Below, in pieces: positions 2,446 to 24,856 of a DNA stretch of 27,711 nucleotides. A program made the position numbers and the translations under genes. The number at the start of each line of letters is the position of its first letter. Position 1 is the first letter of the stretch. This stretch comes from a virus, in the IMG/VR virus record IMGVR_UViG_3300035698_004014, positions 1-27,711 of that record. One strand, 5' to 3'. The notes under the pieces are model-generated. The model was not told where the DNA came from, ran no database searches, and saw only the letters and a program-made list of their open reading frames with translations.

Positions 2446-2486
2446 GGTAATGCAATCGCCGTTGGTATAATTCTCTAAGAACTTAT

Positions 2487-2515
2487 ATTATACCATTACT
2501 TGACAAAATGGTCAA
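2487..2515 (-). promoter_or_regulatory. Sigma70-type promoter for the HNH gene
   Basis: Minus-strand TTGACC (2515-2510), a 17-bp spacer and TATAAT (2492-2487). The -35 box overlaps the capsid stop codon. The expected start near 2480 gives a ~60-nt leader that includes the inverted repeat around the HNH start codon. Confidence 0.65.
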
Positions 2516-3549
2516 ACTGTGGCACCGTCGCCGTCGCTCCACATCCAACCACGAAGATCAGATCCGCCCATAACGGCTAATGAGTTAAAGTTCAACACCA
2601 AGTCCTGATTACCTAGCAAGTCAACGACTGCTGGTTCTGCACGAGTTGGTAAAGCTTCAATATATTTGAAGCCATAGTCTTCATTCATCATCTTAGAATC
2701 GAACATTCCCCACATTAAGCCGTCCATTGCCAAGTTTTGGTAAGGAGAAAGCTCAACTACTTTGAAAGTTTCAGTAGCTGGAGAATTATTGAACAAATTA
2801 GTTTGCTGAGGAGCCAAACCTTTGTCAATCGTACCTTTGATTGTCTTGGCGAATTGAGCAGTGGTTGAACCTCTGCGACAAATCAAAGTATCTAAGTCTG
2901 AGACGAGTGGATTTCCACGACCATCTTTCTTAACTGAATGTAACCTACGAGCAGCCAAGAGGGATGAATAAGTAAATTGAGGTGAATCTGTAGCACCGTC
3001 AACGATGACATTCGACCAAGCTGTTCCGCCGTCTTCACGAGGGTGAGCTTGTGACCAATACTCAACAGCATCGGCACCGATTGTTGCAATAGTCGTTGTC
3101 GTACCTACTGCGTTAATTGGTGTCCATGTGAATGAAGTATCAAATCCTTGTGCCAAAAGTGACTGGGCTAAATAGTTTTTTGCGTGTTCGATAGAATTTT
3201 TTCCTTCAATGACTTTTGCTTTTACAGAGCCTTTAATTTTCTTAGCTGCTGATTCAAACAAGAAGAAATTGGTTTGGAATGTCAAACGTACTTTCTTCGT
3301 AAAGTGCATTTGGACATAATTCTTTGAGTAACCTTGAATAGGTGCATCGGAAGCTCCGATTCCACCATCTGGGATTATTTGAGCCATACCTAGTCCTGTA
3401 ACTCCAACGTCAGTGTAAGTCCTTTCGCTGTTGTCAACTTTGTACATAAAGTCCAAATATTCAGAGCGAATAGTTGGCGAGACTTTGGGAGCAATGTGTT
3501 TTAAGACATTGTTTACTATGACTGCATAATCATTAATTGTTCCTGTCAT
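2512..3549 (-). CDS. Major capsid protein
   Basis: 345 residues, ATG start after an AT-rich leader without a Shine-Dalgarno site. Size and position fit a major capsid protein: it follows portal, scaffold-like and decoration-like genes. The N-terminal part has the pattern expected of HK97-fold subunits: an N-arm with SEYLDFMYKVDNSERTYTD, a glycine-rich E-loop-like segment (IPDGGIGASDAPIQGYS), then FTKKVRLTFQTNFFLFESAAKKIKG, which matches the strand and spine helix of the P-domain. The C-terminal half includes the LDTLICRRG segment typical of A-domain cores. I cannot name the closest family by eye. No protease gene is visible beside it, so capsid maturation may not need proteolysis or the protease lies elsewhere. 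Confidence 0.85.
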   Translation of the reverse strand: MTGTINDYAVIVNNVLKHIAPKVSPTIRSEYLDFMYKVDNSERTYTDVGVTGLGMAQIIPDGGIGASDAPIQGYSKNYVQMHFTKKVRLTFQTNFFLFESAAKKIKGSVKAKVIEGKNSIEHAKNYLAQSLLAQGFDTSFTWTPINAVGTTTTIATIGADAVEYWSQAHPREDGGTAWSNVIVDGATDSPQFTYSSLLAARRLHSVKKDGRGNPLVSDLDTLICRRGSTTAQFAKTIKGTIDKGLAPQQTNLFNNSPATETFKVVELSPYQNLAMDGLMWGMFDSKMMNEDYGFKYIEALPTRAEPAVVDLLGNQDLVLNFNSLAVMGGSDLRGWMWSDGDGATV

Positions 3550-3570
3550 GTTTTTGTTGTATTAATTAAA

Positions 3571-3981
3571 TTATTTAGTCAAAAATTTTCCGATAATCGT
3601 CTTATCGGATGCTTCTCCATAGGGCTCGACTTGCTCTACGATACCAGTACCGCTGGTAGTATGTGTGTTATTAACTTCTGTTGCACTAGCAAGAACCATA
3701 GCTTGACCATTGTCAGTAGCTTGTGTGTTATTGCTTGTTGGAAAGATATAAGTATCTTCATCCGAAGGCACAATATAAGAAACACGAATCAAAGCATCAG
3801 CTATTGCGATTGTTTGGTTACAAACACCTAACAAATCCGCAACAACAGTACCGCTATCAGCATCAACGGCAAGTCCAGCTGTTTGAGCTACTATGTTGCC
3901 GAGTGTCATAACCGTACCCGTTGCCTTATCTGTTTCCAATAATTGCCTTGTATTTTTGATTGTAGCTTGTCGTACAGGCAT
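3571..3981 (-). CDS. Probable capsid decoration/stabilisation protein
   Basis: 136 residues, ATG start (MPVRQATIKN). The sequence is Thr/Ala/Val/Gly-rich with alternating hydrophobics (GTVMTLGNIVAQTAGLAVD, ALIRVSYIVPSD) and no catalytic residues, as in small beta-barrel decoration or DUF2190-like head proteins. It sits between the scaffold-like gene and the capsid gene, the classic position for a decoration protein, with short gaps of 21-24 bp. The assignment rests mainly on position, size and composition. Confidence 0.6.
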   Translation of the reverse strand: MPVRQATIKNTRQLLETDKATGTVMTLGNIVAQTAGLAVDADSGTVVADLLGVCNQTIAIADALIRVSYIVPSDEDTYIFPTSNNTQATDNGQAMVLASATEVNNTHTTSGTGIVEQVEPYGEASDKTIIGKFLTK

Positions 3982-4005
3982 AATTTTGCTTTTTAAAGGA
4001 TTAAA

Positions 4006-5004
4006 TTAATCCGATATAAGCTCGACTGCCTTTTCTTCTGACATACCAGTTGCGATAAGTTCATCTAAGTCCTTACGCTTTTCTGGTGAATACTCCGTCT
4101 TTGCTATAGTTCCTCCTGGAAACTGCATAGCATTGACTTTCTCCTGAACGTTTGCACCCTTTAGAACTCTTTCTTGAATAGACTCTGAAGGCTTGAACAT
4201 GCTGTCACGAGCTAATTCCAAGACTGTCATCAAATCCTTACCACCCTTGTTTTGCCAAGAGTAGTTAGCATCAACGAAATCAAAGAATACTTCTCTCGTG
4301 TCCTCATCTGCAAGCTCAGTATGCCTACCTATGAAAGAATCTAAGGTATTTTTGACATCTGTCTTCAAGCGATCCTCTTGAACCATCTTTTGAATGTCCT
4401 CCTTCGTCGCTCCACCAAGTTGTCTCAACCGTTCTTTGTCAGCCTCTAAGGCTTTTTCATCGTCGGTCTCTATCGGTGGGTCAGTTTTTTCCGTTAATTT
4501 TTCATTTAACGGATTGACGAACCTATCAGCTCCATTGATAGTTTTAAGTTGATTCTTAGCCGTATCAATTTTACCTGATATTTGTTCACGTTGTTCTTCA
4601 GATTTAGCAAGCTTTCGTTTCTTAACTAAGTCTAAAAGCTCAATTCGCTTTTCGAATGACTCGTCAGATTCGAACTTACCCTTGTTAGGTATGCGAAACT
4701 CATAAGGTTTCGGCTCAACTATTTCTTCTGATTCAACATCAACGGGAGGGGTGCTGGTATCCTCCACCTTGGGAACCTCGGGAACTTCTTTTTTAGGAAT
4801 TTCTTCCTTTGAAATCTCTTCCGTTGGAACGTCAGGCTTGGCTTCCTCCTCTTTAACGGGAGTAGGCTCATTTCCAGCTTTGACAGCTTCTATAGACTCT
4901 TCTAAGATTTTATCAACCTCAGATTCATCTTCCACTACTGGTGCAATTTCAAGTGCATCTGTAGCAGGTTCTCCTGCCTTTATCTCTTCTTTAGGATTAT
5001 CCAT
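4006..5004 (-). CDS. Probable scaffolding protein
   Basis: 332 residues. The N-terminal ~100 are extremely acidic and Pro/Glu-rich (for example TPVKEEEAKPDVPTEE), followed by mixed-charge helix and coiled coil (~105-235) and a helical C-terminus ending in EKRKDLDELIATGMSEEKAVELI. This low-complexity acidic plus coiled-coil pattern directly before decoration and capsid genes is typical of phage internal scaffolds. No protease motif is seen. It has its own likely promoter at 5048-5076 and a leader hairpin at 5012-5030 shared with the gene upstream, so its level may be set apart from the portal. Confidence 0.72.
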   Translation of the reverse strand: MDNPKEEIKAGEPATDALEIAPVVEDESEVDKILEESIEAVKAGNEPTPVKEEEAKPDVPTEEISKEEIPKKEVPEVPKVEDTSTPPVDVESEEIVEPKPYEFRIPNKGKFESDESFEKRIELLDLVKKRKLAKSEEQREQISGKIDTAKNQLKTINGADRFVNPLNEKLTEKTDPPIETDDEKALEADKERLRQLGGATKEDIQKMVQEDRLKTDVKNTLDSFIGRHTELADEDTREVFFDFVDANYSWQNKGGKDLMTVLELARDSMFKPSESIQERVLKGANVQEKVNAMQFPGGTIAKTEYSPEKRKDLDELIATGMSEEKAVELISD

Positions 5005-13327: not shown

Positions 13328-13419
13328 ATTAATATATTGATTGGGATCTAAAAGTTTTAGATCCTTAGTGAATAGATTAATAAATTGTGTGATTGATCAC
13401 CTTAAGTGATTAAAAAAAA
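13328..13419 (+). promoter_or_regulatory. Repeated two-hairpin leader, copy 1
   Basis: Hairpin I: arms GGATCTAAAA and TTTTAGATCC (13344-13364). Hairpin II: TTGATCAC - CTTAA - GTGATTAA (13393-13413), then A residues and the ATG at 13420. The ~92-nt unit recurs almost unchanged before the next two genes, and hairpin II alone before two more. Confidence 0.85.
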
Positions 13420-13758
13420 ATGTACTTAAAAAATGAGCATTTTAAGGATATACTGATTGACAATAACATTGATCAATCAAAAATGTTTAATTCAAAAAAG
13501 CGGTTATCATCAAAAGCATTTATTTTTTCAAGCGATAAAAATATAGCTATTATATACGTCAATACCATTGTATTTCTAAAGATTGGTAAAAGAATAGTTT
13601 TAGACACGGCGGGCTGGTATTCTGAAACTTCTAAAAATTGGATCAATCACGGCTTTTCTCTTATTGGTAAAAATTACAATATGCACCGTAAAAATTGGAT
13701 ATGGTATATAGATATAGACGGCAAGGACATTGAATTTTTTGACGAAATGACAATCTAA
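13420..13758 (+). CDS. Small early protein (112 aa), perhaps DUF8033-like
   Basis: ATG directly after the hairpin II/poly-A leader. The central YVNTIVFLKIGKRIVLDTAG followed by WYSETSKNWIN has the look of a small phage family I know only as a DUF (strand-turn-strand, Gly-Trp, then a Thr/Ser-x-x-x-Asn helix start). That resemblance is tentative. The C-terminus is rich in Trp, Tyr and Asp. Function unknown. Confidence 0.6.
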   Translation: MYLKNEHFKDILIDNNIDQSKMFNSKKRLSSKAFIFSSDKNIAIIYVNTIVFLKIGKRIVLDTAGWYSETSKNWINHGFSLIGKNYNMHRKNWIWYIDIDGKDIEFFDEMTI

Positions 13759-13761
13759 TTA

Positions 13762-13852
13762 TTAGTATATTGATCGGGATCTAAAAGTTTTAGATCCTTA
13801 GTGAATAGATTAATAAATTGTATGATTGATCACCTTAAGTGATTAAAAAAAA
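13762..13852 (+). promoter_or_regulatory. Repeated two-hairpin leader, copy 2
   Basis: Hairpin I at 13777-13797 and hairpin II at 13826-13846, with only a few base changes from copy 1, ending in A residues and the ATG at 13853. Confidence 0.85.
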
Positions 13853-14200
13853 ATGGCAAAAGATAACTTGCAGTATATAGAAGAAAATACAATAAGTTGT
13901 GACGTATCGCATCGGGGCGGTACTATAAAAATTGACGTATCAGAACTATTTCCTGAAATTGAAGAAAACGCAATAATGGGGGCGTATCAAAACTACTTGG
14001 GCGGGGGTATGGCGGGATCAGTTGTAGGCGGGGCGATGTTTGAGAAAGAAGAACTTGACGAAAAAAATATCGAAAAGTTTGAGATTTTATTTGAAGAAAT
14101 TAAAAAGTATTTTTTCTTTATCAGTAATGACTTGAATACTGATGATTGGGCTACTTCTGATTATAAAACTAATCAAACCCGCCCCGTATCAGCTTATTAG
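13853..14200 (+). CDS. Small early protein (115 aa), unknown
   Basis: MAKDNLQYIEENTISCDVSH start. A glycine-rich centre (YQNYLGGGMAGSVVGGAMF) is flanked by acidic helices (EKEELDEKNIEKFEILFEEI) and a polar C-terminus. No nucleotide-binding or catalytic motif is convincing in the Gly-rich loop. It starts at the hairpin II leader; its stop lies inside the next leader repeat. Confidence 0.6.
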   Translation: MAKDNLQYIEENTISCDVSHRGGTIKIDVSELFPEIEENAIMGAYQNYLGGGMAGSVVGGAMFEKEELDEKNIEKFEILFEEIKKYFFFISNDLNTDDWATSDYKTNQTRPVSAY

Positions 14201-14287
14201 TATATTGATTGGGATCTAAAAGTTTTAGATCCCTAATGAGTATATTAATTAATTGTATGATTGATCACCATAAGTGATTAAAAAAAA
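14195..14287 (+). promoter_or_regulatory. Repeated two-hairpin leader, copy 3
   Basis: Hairpin I at 14212-14232 and hairpin II at 14261-14281 with loop CATAA instead of CTTAA while both stems are kept. Ends in A residues and the ATG at 14288. Confidence 0.85.
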
Positions 14288-14746
14288 ATGAAAGTTAAAA
14301 CAAGTTTAACTGATTTTAGGGGCGAAAAAATGACTTTCGGCGGTGAATATGCGGATAAGTTATTGAAATATATCCAAGAGAGTGAAGAATTAAAACTTGG
14401 AGATTTCGATGAAATTTGGGATAGCTATGATGAAAAAAATTATAATAGTTATAACGGATCATTTTTAGGCAATGACTACTTGATAAAATGGTACAAGGAT
14501 AGACAATATCTAGCTTTTCATCGATCGGGCGATATACGGGGCAATTATACTGATTTCGTTGATATAACTGATAGTTGTATAATTGATGAAATAGATATTG
14601 TCAATGCTACAATTGAAATTGAAAGCAAGGGCAAAACATATACAAGCTACAATAATAGCAATTATGATACTTATCAATTTGAAGAAATTGAAGAATTGGG
14701 GCTTGATAAAGAAAAACTTGAAGAAATGTTTTATGACAATGAATAA
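14288..14746 (+). CDS. Acidic early protein (152 aa), unknown
   Basis: MKVKTSLTDFRGEKMTFGGE start. Very acidic and rich in Asp, Glu, Tyr and Asn (WDSYDEKNYNSYNGSF, DEIDIVNATIEIESKG). Strong negative charge in a small early phage protein can mean DNA mimicry, but nothing specific supports that here. Start fixed by the repeated hairpin leader. Confidence 0.6.
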   Translation: MKVKTSLTDFRGEKMTFGGEYADKLLKYIQESEELKLGDFDEIWDSYDEKNYNSYNGSFLGNDYLIKWYKDRQYLAFHRSGDIRGNYTDFVDITDSCIIDEIDIVNATIEIESKGKTYTSYNNSNYDTYQFEEIEELGLDKEKLEEMFYDNE

Positions 14747-19538: not shown

Positions 19539-20771
19539 ATGAAAATACCTAAAATAATTCATCAGTTATGGGTTGGAGATTTACCAGTGCCTGACAAATG
19601 GATGCAGACTTGGAAAGATAAGCACCCTGACTGGGAGTATAAACTCTGGACTGAAAAAGAGTTGGGCGAATTTGATTTTGTAAATCAGAGTCAGATTGAC
19701 CACTTCATGAAGAACGAAATATATCCTGGAGTTGCTGACGTAGCTAGATACGAAATACTTCATAAGTTCGGTGGATTTTGGGCTGGAGCAGACACGGAGT
19801 GCCTGATACCGATTGATGAATTATTTGTTGATGATGAATTCGAGACTTACACATTTTACGAGAACGAGGAGATACGACCTAACTTAGTCGCTCCAATTTG
19901 TGCTTGCGTTCCCGGAAGTTCATTTGCAAAAAGGTTGATAGATAATATGCCTACTATTGAGAATATAATTTTTACCCAAAGAGAACCGTGGCAATGTACT
20001 GGAAATTATTACGTTATGATGGAGATGTTCTCCGCTAATGACGAAAAACTAAAGGTATTTCCTAGCCACTTTTTTGTTCCAGTTCATTATACTGGGTGGA
20101 CATACAAGGGAACTGGCAAAGTGTATGCCACTCACCTGTTCGGAACTTCACAAGAGAACTATGATGAGGGGAGGAAGGTTGACAAATTTCAGGAAAGATA
20201 CCTTGAGCATCAGACAAGGAAGGGAGATGGTAAGGTAGAACCAAACACAAATGTTTATTCAGACATGGAACGTCAAGTATTCTTTAGAATTTTAGAGAGA
20301 AGAAGAAGTCAGAGGAAGTTCAGCCATGCAGGTATTTGCGAGAAATACATTAAGGCATTATATGGTAGCGTAATGTTAGCTCCATCGTCTTGTAACAGGC
20401 AAGCTATTTATATTCAAAAAGTAGATATAATGAAGGACTTGCTAGTTGGCGGTAAGGGTTGGATAAATAATGGTGATACTATTTTTCTCATCTTCGCCAA
20501 CACTACAGCCTACAAATCACCGAATGAAATAGATTTTATGCCGTACTTAGATGCAGGAGTTGTAGTTCAGAACTTGTACTTAATGGCAGAAGTCTTGAAT
20601 CTCGGTGCTTGTTTCGTAAATCCCAACATAAGAAAAGAGGACTTGGAGGAATTCAACAAAGAATACAATAAAAAAGGACACATATTTTGTGGTGCTATGG
20701 TATTCGGACACTATGATAAGAAATCAATCGCTCCACCACTCAGGGATTTAGGGGCTGTAAGTAATTTTTAG
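19539..20771 (+). CDS. Two-domain glycosyltransferase (GT32-like)-nitroreductase fusion
   Basis: 410 residues. Residues 1-~215 are a GT32-like sugar transferase (DXD-type, Och1/TcdA family): IPKIIHQLWVGD start, PDWEYKLWTE, VADVARYEILHKFGGFWAGA, then DTE at 85-87 in place of the usual DxD, and a late THLFGTSQ. Residues ~245-392 are a nitroreductase-like flavin domain: ILERRRSQRKF (FMN phosphate contacts), APSSCNRQ at 281-288, DAGVVVQNLYLMAEVLNLGA at 338-357 and FCGAMVFG near the end. The linker (212-245) is charged. The frame is continuous, so this is one polypeptide as written. The nitroreductase part is ~150 residues, shorter than free-standing enzymes. Donor, acceptor and redox partner are unknown; neighbours include a methyltransferase, which suggests glycan or DNA-base modification. 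Confidence 0.8.
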   Translation: MKIPKIIHQLWVGDLPVPDKWMQTWKDKHPDWEYKLWTEKELGEFDFVNQSQIDHFMKNEIYPGVADVARYEILHKFGGFWAGADTECLIPIDELFVDDEFETYTFYENEEIRPNLVAPICACVPGSSFAKRLIDNMPTIENIIFTQREPWQCTGNYYVMMEMFSANDEKLKVFPSHFFVPVHYTGWTYKGTGKVYATHLFGTSQENYDEGRKVDKFQERYLEHQTRKGDGKVEPNTNVYSDMERQVFFRILERRRSQRKFSHAGICEKYIKALYGSVMLAPSSCNRQAIYIQKVDIMKDLLVGGKGWINNGDTIFLIFANTTAYKSPNEIDFMPYLDAGVVVQNLYLMAEVLNLGACFVNPNIRKEDLEEFNKEYNKKGHIFCGAMVFGHYDKKSIAPPLRDLGAVSNF

Positions 20772-20893: not shown

Positions 20894-20916
20894 ATTAATT
20901 GAATAAAAACAAATAT

Positions 20917-21543
20917 ATGGGATTAGAAAACAGACAAGGTGGTAATTATATCACCATACTAGGCGGAAAGTTCTGCCAAAGAGTTACAAAAGAAACAGAG
21001 GGTGCAATCGAAAGAACAAATAAGATAGGCAATGTAGTATTCGAGAAATTTTATGACAATTTTACAGGTAAGTTAATAGATATTACAACAAGAGACGGAG
21101 AATATGGCAAATCTTGGAATTTCATGTTTCAGGATAAGGGAGATGTTTACACTTTGCAGTTGTCTTACTCGAATAGCTTCTCTCAAGCGTTATTGAAGAT
21201 ACTGCCAAACATTGATCTCACTAAGGAAATGAAAGTTTCCCCAAGTGTTAAAGAGGTTGATGGCAAGAGAAAGAGTTCATTATTCGTCAATCAGGACGGT
21301 AAAGCATTGAAACATGCTTATACCAGAGATAATCCAAATGGCTTACCTGATTTAAAACAAACTAAGGTTAAGGGTGAAGTAGTTTGGGACGATACTGAAA
21401 GATTAGAATGGTTGGAGAAAATGGTCAATAAAGATATTAAACCTAAACTTACAGGACCAGTTGAGTATGAGAAAAAAGCCTCAACAGGTCTTGCAGAGGA
21501 CGGAGCAAAGGAAATTAATGTCGAAGAAGACGTTCCTTTCTAA
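20917..21543 (+). CDS. SSB-like single-stranded DNA-binding protein
   Basis: 208 residues from ATG 20917 (MGLENRQGGNYITILGGKFC); a TTG at 20899 in frame adds six residues. The strongest clue is the last segment EINVEEDVPF: an acidic tail ending in a D-x-P-F tip, the interaction peptide of bacterial and phage SSBs. The body is beta-rich with an OB-like order of strands (GNVVFEKFYDNFTGKLIDIT, WNFMFQDKGDVYTLQLSYS). It has its own promoter and lies before the primase-helicase. A large divergent phage SSB is the best reading; sequence identity to classical SSBs is low. Confidence 0.65.
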   Translation: MGLENRQGGNYITILGGKFCQRVTKETEGAIERTNKIGNVVFEKFYDNFTGKLIDITTRDGEYGKSWNFMFQDKGDVYTLQLSYSNSFSQALLKILPNIDLTKEMKVSPSVKEVDGKRKSSLFVNQDGKALKHAYTRDNPNGLPDLKQTKVKGEVVWDDTERLEWLEKMVNKDIKPKLTGPVEYEKKASTGLAEDGAKEINVEEDVPF

Positions 21544-22295: not shown

Positions 22296-22305
22296 AACAA
22301 TTTAA

Positions 22306-22451
22306 TCTCCCCGATATAAATGTAGACTTAATCTAAGAATATCGGAGGAGAGCAGACTATTAGCGGTTATACAGTACGCTTGAGCAGGTTTCTACATTTC
22401 CTACTCACCTGGTACATAATAATCGCTTTTAGTTTGCTCTTTCCCGATATT
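22306..22451 (+). ncRNA. Candidate switch-like structured RNA upstream of the primase-helicase
   Basis: ATATCGG (22339-22345) can pair upstream with CCGATAT (22311-22317; 12-bp stem with GGAGA/TCTCC) or downstream with CCGATAT (22444-22450), extended by 22347-22359 with 22430-22442 and 22362-22370 with 22419-22427, but not both. AAATGTAGA (22318-22326) is the exact complement of TCTACATTT (22391-22399) in the distal loop, giving a 9-bp pseudoknot. Inner arms GTAC (22374-22377/22412-22415) and AGGT/ACCT (22386-22389/22407-22410) close the distal domain. The 173-nt gap has no ORF. The RNA ends ~18 nt before the start codon of the replication gene. Confidence 0.65.
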
Positions 22452-22468
22452 ATTAATACGAAAAATGT

Positions 22469-24856
22469 ATGAATAAACCATTCCTAACTTATTTTCCTAA
22501 CCACGTTTACAGGTACATTGACTCAACCGGTCAAGGTAGACCTGCAAAAGTGTGCAAGGAGATAAACGAGGATCTTAACATTAAAGGATACGAGAGTTAT
22601 TTCACTGTTAATGGATTTGGAAACACTCCAAATGCAAAGATAGGTAACTGCACGAACCTTAATGCGTTTTTTGTTGATATTGACGGTAGGAAGGACTTGG
22701 AGGAATTAAAGGAAGTAAAAGTTAAGTTCAACCCTAGTTTTATTATCGAAACTCAGAATGGTTATCACTTATATTGGCTTTTAAAAGAGCCAATTTTTAA
22801 AACAAAATACTCTCCTGAAGAATGGGATAACATTATTGCTAGGTGGGAAAGGATTGAGTTGGCTATAGTAAAAGAGTTCAATGCTGACCCAGTTGTTAAA
22901 GACGTTCCTAGAATTCTTCGAGTGCCTAACACTTATTACTGGAAAAAGACAGGAGATAAATATAAGAAAGGTACAAAAGGTGTATTCAAAATTAAAGGTT
23001 TGTATAAAAATGCCTCCAGTAAGTACACAATGGAAGAAATCGAAAAGATAATAACAGTAGCAATCGAGCCTGCAACACTAACCGAGGTAGCCAAAGTAAC
23101 CACAAATAAAAACCAAAGATTTGCTGAAGAAATGAGAAATAATTTCTTTGAGAAAGTCATTGAAGAATATCCAATTGAAGACAGAGACAGTTTCCAAGCC
23201 TTAATCAGTGCTAGTCCTGACAGTTTATATCCCACAATCGGTCGCAACAGCACACTGCACGTTACAGCTTGCCTGATGAGACAAGCAGGTTGGACTATTG
23301 ATAAGGCTTTCAAGCACATTGAGAAAGTTGGTTGGCACGGAATGGACAAAGAGCCAGGAGGCTCTCAGGAGATCGCTAACACAATTAAAAGTGCCTTCCA
23401 GAGTAATTATACCTACTCTCACAAAAATGAAGTAATCAAGCACAACACCTCTCTGACCGAGAAGATTGCGATAGATAGTGCAATCACTAAAGTATCTAAG
23501 AGCCGTAGAGAACAAGACAAAGTTCGGTATGCAGATTACGAAAGAGAAGTCCTACTTAATAATCCTTTCTTAAAAAAGAATGAAATCGGAATAATTTATC
23601 AGTACAAAAATGGGGTTTACGAAGAAATGAAAAAAGGAGAAATAGAAAACATTTTTTACAATGGACTATATGATGATATGTTGATAGGATTTAGGACAAA
23701 AAAACATATTTCAGATAAGATAGCTTGCTTGTTATCAATCATACCTGACCTAAAAATTTCAAACGATAATGGTTACATAGCTAATGTAAAGAATGGTTTA
23801 CTGAATATCATAACGAAAGAACTTCTGCCTCATACTCCGGACTTTGTATCCCTTATACAATATCCAATTGAATATAATCCTAACGCAACCTGCCCTGTAT
23901 GGGATAAATGTATTGATGACTGGATGTCTGGACCAGAGAAGAAAGAAAAGATTAGACTTCTCCAACAGTTTTCAGGGTACTGCCTATCTTCTTCAATGCT
24001 TTACGATAGGGCATTGTTTATGGTTGGTGATGGTGCAAATGGTAAGTCAACATTTATAGATACGATTGCTATGGTTGTCGGAGATAGAGCAACCTCTCAT
24101 ATTGACCTTGATACCTTGTATGGTCAGTTCGGATTTAAGGGGCTAATGGGTAAAAGGTTGAACATAATTGAAGAAGTCAGTGGGAATTACTATCAGAGTA
24201 ACAAGCTGAAAAAACTAATCTCTGGAGAAAGGGTAACGATAGATATAAAATATAAAGACCAATTTACTTTCAGACCTCAAGCCAAGTTCGTTTTTGCAGT
24301 GAATTTATTGCCTAGAGTTGATGATGTTTCAACTGCTACTGAACGCAGGATTTGTTGTTTGAAGTTTCTAAATAACTATCGCATAAATCCTAACTACGAA
24401 TTGCGTTCAGATGTTGGCTTACTTGCACAGGAATTATCTGGGATACTGAACTGGATGATTGAGGGAGCAATTGATTTGGCAGAAAATAAGGAGTTCGTAA
24501 GGACAAATGAACAAACAGAAATGTTAAGCGATTATAGAGCAGAAAACTCCTCCGTTGAAGGCTTCTTATCTCAATGCGTAGTTCTGGACGGAACAGGAGA
24601 GATTGAAACACCCGTACTTTATGATGAATACAAAGAATGGAGTTCTTCTGACGGAGGTAGAAAAACGAAAGCAAATATCACATTCACAAAAGAAGTAATT
24701 GCTTACGGAGAAAAAAATCAACGATTCAAATATGTTCCTAGAGGTGGAGGAAGTGGAGAATCAAAATTCGTTGGTATCAGTTTAAGCCCTCAATGGCTAG
24801 AAAGAAGTAGGCATAGAGGTGGGTTAAATAATAATTTCCCAAACCTAAAAAGATGA
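22469..24856 (+). CDS. Primase-helicase (AEP-type primase plus SF3 D5/P4-like helicase)
   Basis: 795 residues. The N-terminal primase-polymerase region has FFVDID at 67-72 (metal-binding DxD), NGYHLYW at 97-103 (the catalytic His) and DPVVKDVPRILRVPNT at 140-155, as in archaeo-eukaryotic primases of mobile elements. A D5-N-like linker follows. The C-terminal SF3 helicase has Walker A MVGDGANGKST at 518-528, Walker B LNIIEEV at 564-570, sensor 1 FVFAVNLLPRV at 607-617 and the Arg finger RR at 626-627. It would unwind the origin and prime synthesis. Start is the second ATG of ATGTATG, behind a structured RNA. The 3' end overlaps the next gene by 4 nt. Confidence 0.92.
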   Translation: MNKPFLTYFPNHVYRYIDSTGQGRPAKVCKEINEDLNIKGYESYFTVNGFGNTPNAKIGNCTNLNAFFVDIDGRKDLEELKEVKVKFNPSFIIETQNGYHLYWLLKEPIFKTKYSPEEWDNIIARWERIELAIVKEFNADPVVKDVPRILRVPNTYYWKKTGDKYKKGTKGVFKIKGLYKNASSKYTMEEIEKIITVAIEPATLTEVAKVTTNKNQRFAEEMRNNFFEKVIEEYPIEDRDSFQALISASPDSLYPTIGRNSTLHVTACLMRQAGWTIDKAFKHIEKVGWHGMDKEPGGSQEIANTIKSAFQSNYTYSHKNEVIKHNTSLTEKIAIDSAITKVSKSRREQDKVRYADYEREVLLNNPFLKKNEIGIIYQYKNGVYEEMKKGEIENIFYNGLYDDMLIGFRTKKHISDKIACLLSIIPDLKISNDNGYIANVKNGLLNIITKELLPHTPDFVSLIQYPIEYNPNATCPVWDKCIDDWMSGPEKKEKIRLLQQFSGYCLSSSMLYDRALFMVGDGANGKSTFIDTIAMVVGDRATSHIDLDTLYGQFGFKGLMGKRLNIIEEVSGNYYQSNKLKKLISGERVTIDIKYKDQFTFRPQAKFVFAVNLLPRVDDVSTATERRICCLKFLNNYRINPNYELRSDVGLLAQELSGILNWMIEGAIDLAENKEFVRTNEQTEMLSDYRAENSSVEGFLSQCVVLDGTGEIETPVLYDEYKEWSSSDGGRKTKANITFTKEVIAYGEKNQRFKYVPRGGGSGESKFVGISLSPQWLERSRHRGGLNNNFPNLKR

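Follow-up and report, generated by a model that had tools for sequence, protein, structure and literature searches.

In the repZ system of ColIb-P9, the loop of a hairpin is the pseudoknot partner and a leader peptide is translated first. For repZ, a replication gene of ColIb-P9 (IncI-alpha), translation is controlled by a long-range pseudoknot that adjoins the beginning of the gene (PMC8383071). The timP toxin mRNA adopts mutually exclusive conformations, one of which contains a long-range knot, and these decide translation (PMC11228461). The operator of T4 gene 32 consists of a pseudoknot followed by an A/U-rich initiation region, and a homing endonuclease gene overlaps or borders it (PMC535899).

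The element described here lies in a 27.7-kb fragment from a tailed phage (27,711 nucleotides, the whole stretch of DNA that was analysed and is called the window below). A gap of 173 nt (22296-22468) separates a methyltransferase ORF from a primase-helicase ORF, and the original prediction placed in it a switch-like RNA with mutually exclusive stems and a 9-bp pseudoknot. That this RNA is real is near certain. It is a previously uncatalogued family with strong covariation that sits on a replication gene, in phages without close relatives in the annotated collection searched.

Structure of the RNA and its setting in the window

The predicted minimum free energy of the 173-nt gap is -54.7 kcal/mol, compared to -28.5 +/- 4.0 kcal/mol for dinucleotide shuffles (z = -6.59; 0/200 as good), in agreement with the initial impression of more pairing than expected for a gap of this length. 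The strand ATATCGG indeed has two exact partners, one upstream and one downstream, and the 9-nt match between the two proposed loops, here termed U and L, is exact. The genes and RNA segments referred to in the text are the following.

20899-21543, plus strand: probable single-stranded DNA-binding protein (SSB) gene; conserved acidic tip, weak OB-fold matches
22311-22317, plus strand: 5' strand of stem P0, CCGATAT with CUCC just upstream; exact complement and alternative partner of X
22318-22326, plus strand: U, AAAUGUAGA; upstream partner of L, 9-bp exact complement, covaries with L
22334-22455, plus strand: P1, long hairpin of 8+13+9+4+4+3 bp plus a 3-bp clamp; apical loop 22389-22399
22339-22345, plus strand: X, AUAUCGG; shared strand that pairs with P0 upstream or P1 downstream
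22391-22399, plus strand: L, UCUACAUUU; in the apical loop, pairs with U or D
22444-22450, plus strand: 3' strand of P1, CCGAUAU; second partner of X
22463-22469, plus strand: D, AAAUGUA; second partner of L, overlaps the first base of the primase AUG
22469-24856, plus strand: primase-helicase; D5_N and DUF5906 (Pfam and PHROG matches), PDB 7ola primase C-terminal match

P1 consists of one long arm, closed by the weak 3-bp clamp and ending at 22455, and the 'first stem' and 'second stem' of the original prediction are therefore two forms of one switch. L fills 9 of the 11 nucleotides of the apical loop. Its duplex with U has 9 bp and -8.7 kcal/mol, and its duplex with D 7 bp and -5.0 kcal/mol. 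P0 is extended by CUCC/GGAG pairing. The structured part stops 13-18 nt 5' of the primase AUG, close to the ca. 18 nt first stated.

The mutual exclusion of the two stems was upheld by the energy model, in which P0 and P1 of the window are near-equal (-51.6 vs -53.5; nearest-neighbour energies with knots excluded). Folding of successively longer prefixes gave P0 with a probability of 1 from 22349 to 22445 and P1 with a probability of 0.99 by 22451. The same model gave mutually exclusive P0 and P1 forms about 2-7 kcal/mol apart in 7/7 members of the window's clade, and in all seven P0 forms before the 3' strand is transcribed. By its calculated energy, the U-L helix could tip the balance between P0 and P1. 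Only the seven members of the window's clade have the alternative stem P0; on the primase tree it was gained once, inside a larger clade of eight members without the leader ORF described below.

The primase-helicase is presumably the gene under control of the RNA element. The gene at 20899-21543 probably encodes an SSB: its product has retained an acidic tip with VPF, IPF or PW at its end, and a protein model gave weak OB-fold matches (best PrgE, E 4.5e-3, low TM-score). It would lie upstream in the same operon as the primase-helicase. In another window ORF, at 19539-20771, the N-terminal part resembles a glycosyltransferase and the C-terminal part a nitroreductase. A tRNA/tmRNA search gave no match.

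Conservation, leader ORFs and start-site partners

Scans with the primase sequence yielded about 35 contigs of related phages, which were 53-73% identical, the next matches being only at about 33%. Some 30 of these contigs carry a long hairpin directly upstream of the primase, with an apical part complementary to a site before the stem, so that the shared architecture consists of the P1 hairpin, the apical loop L and the upstream complementary site U. The paired U/L sequences themselves vary among relatives (UGUAGA, UGUAAC, UGCUAA, UACUAC, UAUGGCACA, UAACCCGCAAA and others). Complementarity of U and L averaged 8.3 nt within the same phage versus 5.35 nt between phages, and 0/20000 permutations were as good. 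The stem is paired and conserved in the alignments A3, A4 and A5. In A5, which holds ten sequences and excludes the window, 94% of the cells in the stem and the U-L knot are paired and 26 pairs changed on both sides; 0/500 shuffles and no slid version of the alignment were as good. A covariance model of the stem built from these ten sequences found the window element at 22318-22451 (E 7e-4) as well as most other divergent members. Relatives thus kept the pairing while the sequence changed, the opposite of the pattern (sequence kept, pairing lost) that the original prediction had named as contrary evidence.

Outside this group the RNA was not found. Distant primases (about 30% identity) were covered at 44 loci, where the covariance model detected no copy. 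With Rfam 15, riboswitches included, no family reached the curated threshold in the window, a permissive threshold around the element gave chance matches alone (E>0.7), and a search of 18 relatives returned one tRNA and nothing else. The annotated phage collection gave only chance matches at the DNA level; for the primase protein, the matches listed reached at most about 27% identity. No relative of the primase was found in bacterial genomes. Pattern scans for the RNA away from the primase produced a single match, in L128, which was judged to be due to chance as it lies within a coding gene. A model match at 353-496 in L024 (E 0.014) was rejected as a second copy since no U-L pairing was seen by eye; it is located upstream of a different gene that has the AAAAATGTATG start motif. 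The element was not recognised in L039, L054, L056 and L057, of which L054 and L039 were inspected closely. In L054, an SSB-like ORF (1858-2487) without the acidic tip overlaps the start of the primase ORF (2474-4873) and the RNA is missing.

In 21 loci examined, a leader ORF extends across the hairpin. For the majority of family members that do not belong to the window's clade, this ORF comprises 26-52 codons, starts at or just before U and stays open through the hairpin, with a p-value for this openness of 5e-10 that is inflated by relatedness and by post hoc choice of the start. Its stop often coincides with the primase AUG or lies close by, and overlaps the AUG in several relatives, an arrangement that looks like translational coupling. 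A conserved leader peptide was considered and rejected: the frame in which the ORF crosses the conserved stem differs from phage to phage, and changes between the most closely related pairs show no third-position excess, so that it is not the peptide that has been conserved. The clade of eight rows that includes the window has no leader ORF. In the window, U reads AUG-UAG, which to judge from the sequence may be all that is left of the relatives' leader ORF, a start codon followed by a stop codon.

Five relatives (L020, L025, L027, L043 and L084) have an endonuclease-like ORF between the RNA and the primase, and the RNA is kept; the 'endonuclease' label was assigned by eye, and the ORF of L084 has no Pfam match. 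In L025 (1846-2493) and L084 (1529-2035) this ORF begins inside the RNA and the leader ORF reads into it in frame. The endonuclease-like ORF of L027 is split in two.

The site D extends the pairing possibilities of L to the primase start. D, the leader ORF of the relatives and the restriction of P0 to the window's clade were all absent from the original prediction. In most members of a clade of 20 that includes the window, L is complementary to D. The complementarity of L to its own D was 7.2-7.5, versus 5.9-6.4 otherwise (7 to 19 of 50000 permutations in three D-clade subsets). The clearest instance comes from L036 and its sister lineage L037/L044, between which all three sites (U, L and D) change in concert. 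In the L037 and L044 records the 8-mer AAATGCTA is present solely as U, L and D, and a genome-wide repeat was rejected for these two because further copies are lacking. D-L complementarity is absent from the deep branch except for L029, so D is not a universal target. Taken by itself, D carries little weight in the window's clade because it coincides with the AAAAATGTATG start motif of many early genes.

Recurrent sequences occur at other gene starts of the window as well. The motif AATGTATG, mostly within AAAATGTATG, is found at the starts of seven plus-strand genes, and a near-identical 25-nt sequence lies directly 5' of the ATG in three genes.

15317, 16685, 16831, 17001, 17392, 18735 and 22464, plus strand: copies of AATGTATG
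13395-13420, 13828-13853 and 14263-14288: upstream sequences GATCACCTTAAGTGATTAAAAAAAA

In the relatives G003, G011 and G012, AAATGTATG occurs 7-14 times, with all or almost all copies on the same strand, and many of these copies are embedded in a longer consensus like TTAATTAACTAATATAAAAATGTATG.

Proposed control of primase-helicase translation and alternative readings

We consider it fairly probable that the RNA is an mRNA element acting in cis to set the level at which the primase-helicase is translated, with L serving as an internal antisense to initiation regions. This reading is preferred because U and D are at start sites and covary with L, the leader ORF ends at the primase start, and P0 replaced this ORF. 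Control of translation, its direction and the mutual exclusion of U-L and D-L pairing in the cell are what we infer from these observations.

In the proposed mechanism, P1 would present L as an antisense to the translation-initiation regions of the same transcript. In the ancestral form, L would pair with U at the start of the short leader ORF; ribosomes entering the leader ORF would open the hairpin and then pass on to the primase, and U-L pairing would restrain this handover. In the clade that holds the window, L could also pair with D on the primase start, and U and D would compete for L. In the subclade of the window the leader ORF is gone, and an RNA-only switch between P0 and P1 may open the base of the hairpin instead. 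In the order of transcription, P0 would form first and give way to P1 when synthesis of the nucleotides just before D is completed. Either protein, the SSB encoded upstream or the primase, is a candidate trigger, and so is the speed of folding without any further factor. U-L pairing would have opposite signs in the two forms, repressing in the ancestral and relieving in the derived one. The series of lineages, from leader ORF to two competing sites to RNA-only switch, would make the replacement of one regulatory mechanism by another directly testable.

The geometry sets a constraint on the pairing of L with both U and D. About 30 or more bp of stem separate L from the base of the hairpin and the linkers to U are just 3-27 nt long; therefore L must fold back, the stem must open partly, or the pairing occurs in trans.

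The element is a plus-strand RNA. This follows from an excess of mismatches that are G-U on the plus strand over those that are G-U on the minus strand (A-C), at 100:49 with a p-value that kinship among the sequences makes inexact, from more stable folding on the plus strand in 28/30, and from one U-G wobble that is invariant in 10/10 A5 sequences. These three observations also speak against an unlikely alternative, a replication origin in which U, L and D would serve as DNA iterons for the primase-helicase to bind, with extrusion of the inverted repeat as a cruciform; iterons should show no strand preference in mismatches, contrary to both the mismatch ratio and the plus-strand stability. An origin would suit the position next to a replication initiator-like gene, and concerted change of U, L and D is equally expected of binding sites. 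There is also a precedent in NrS-1 PrimPol, which starts at an 8-nt site (PMC8718748). However, the middle copy is always in the apical part of a hairpin, and the L037 and L044 records hold no further copies of the repeat. An origin by GC skew was rejected since the skew turns at 11 kb, away from the element. The loss of the RNA from L054, which manages without it, speaks against an indispensable origin.

We likewise regard as rather unlikely that the hairpin is a transcription attenuator, terminating before the primase and relieved by the alternative pairings. Switching between P0 and P1 while the 3' arm emerges would fit attenuation, and a T-run follows or lies within the 3' arm in L029, L035, L043, L055 and L077. 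In most members, however, the T-run is paired inside a longer stem, and the plus strand at the element of the window has no terminator-like site.

Long stems between cistrons are known as the intercistronic RNase III sites of T7. Uninterrupted stems of 20-30 bp between cistrons in many members could similarly be RNase III-type cleavage sites between the SSB and primase messages, with the loop pairing as a protective fold, but a processing or stability element of this kind would leave both the covarying U-L and D-L pairing and the leader ORF unexplained, and we give it a very low probability.

A similarly low probability is given to a trans-acting RNA, in which L would target U or D on different transcripts, or else the AAAAATGTATG motif of early genes. 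Covariation is equally compatible with pairing in cis and in trans, and the geometry is easier in trans. The window, G003, G011 and G012 carry 7-14 copies of the motif, with nearly all copies sharing a strand; the match to this shared start motif is only 6-7 nt, though, L037 and L044 hold the target 8-mer nowhere else, and no promoter or terminator evidence points to a discrete RNA. A related and equally improbable variant is that L acts between molecules, each primase message being antisense to its own and sister start sites, which would be an RNA-only dosage control. If this were true, intermolecular pairing would rise with transcript number and control the dosage of replication, and in the window's clade, with AAAAATGTATG on a dozen early genes, L could damp the whole early operon.

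An origin, a riboswitch and a free RNA are all less supported than the cis-acting translational switch. Among the three functions originally offered, a regulator of initiation is best, because U and D lie in initiation regions and D covaries with L; nothing speaks for a riboswitch-like element, for which no Rfam class matched, nor for a free-standing RNA, the element occurring only upstream of this primase gene and its counterparts in relatives, directly behind the preceding gene.

Comparison with known RNA switches

The cis-acting switch proposed here has parallels in each of the three systems introduced above. As in ColIb-P9 repZ, a long-range pseudoknot lies beside the start of a replication gene. 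A leader ORF is present in the phage relatives but absent from the window. The ColIb-P9 pseudoknot is located upstream of the ribosome site and is activating, whereas D of the phage element overlaps the start codon. Moreover, the ColIb-P9 pseudoknot is blocked by a separate antisense RNA, whereas the phage element has U as a second internal partner and no antisense RNA came to light for it. The two have no sequence relationship.

With timP the element shares exclusive mRNA conformations, one of which has a long-range knot. It differs in that timP is a toxin-antitoxin gene of the host chromosome whose antitoxin RNA is a separate molecule, and the sequences are unrelated. Three properties of switches of the repZ and timP type were found in the phage family: a covarying long-range loop pairing, exclusive P0 and P1 conformations (by the energy model, in 7 members), and a partner at the start codon in the form of D, in members of the 20-row clade that includes the window and, within the deep branch, only in L029.

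The setting is reminiscent of T4 gene 32, where a pseudoknot in a phage replication operon is likewise combined with an A/U-rich initiation region and a bordering or overlapping endonuclease-like gene. The T4 knot, to which the SSB binds cooperatively, is about 28 nt long and is part of the message of the SSB itself. In contrast, the phage element measures about 120-150 nt and is located on the primase message downstream of the probable SSB gene, and binding of a protein to it is hypothetical. By analogy, the element may thus work like the ColIb-P9 repZ and timP switches in a setting that resembles T4 gene 32, while we claim membership in none of these families.
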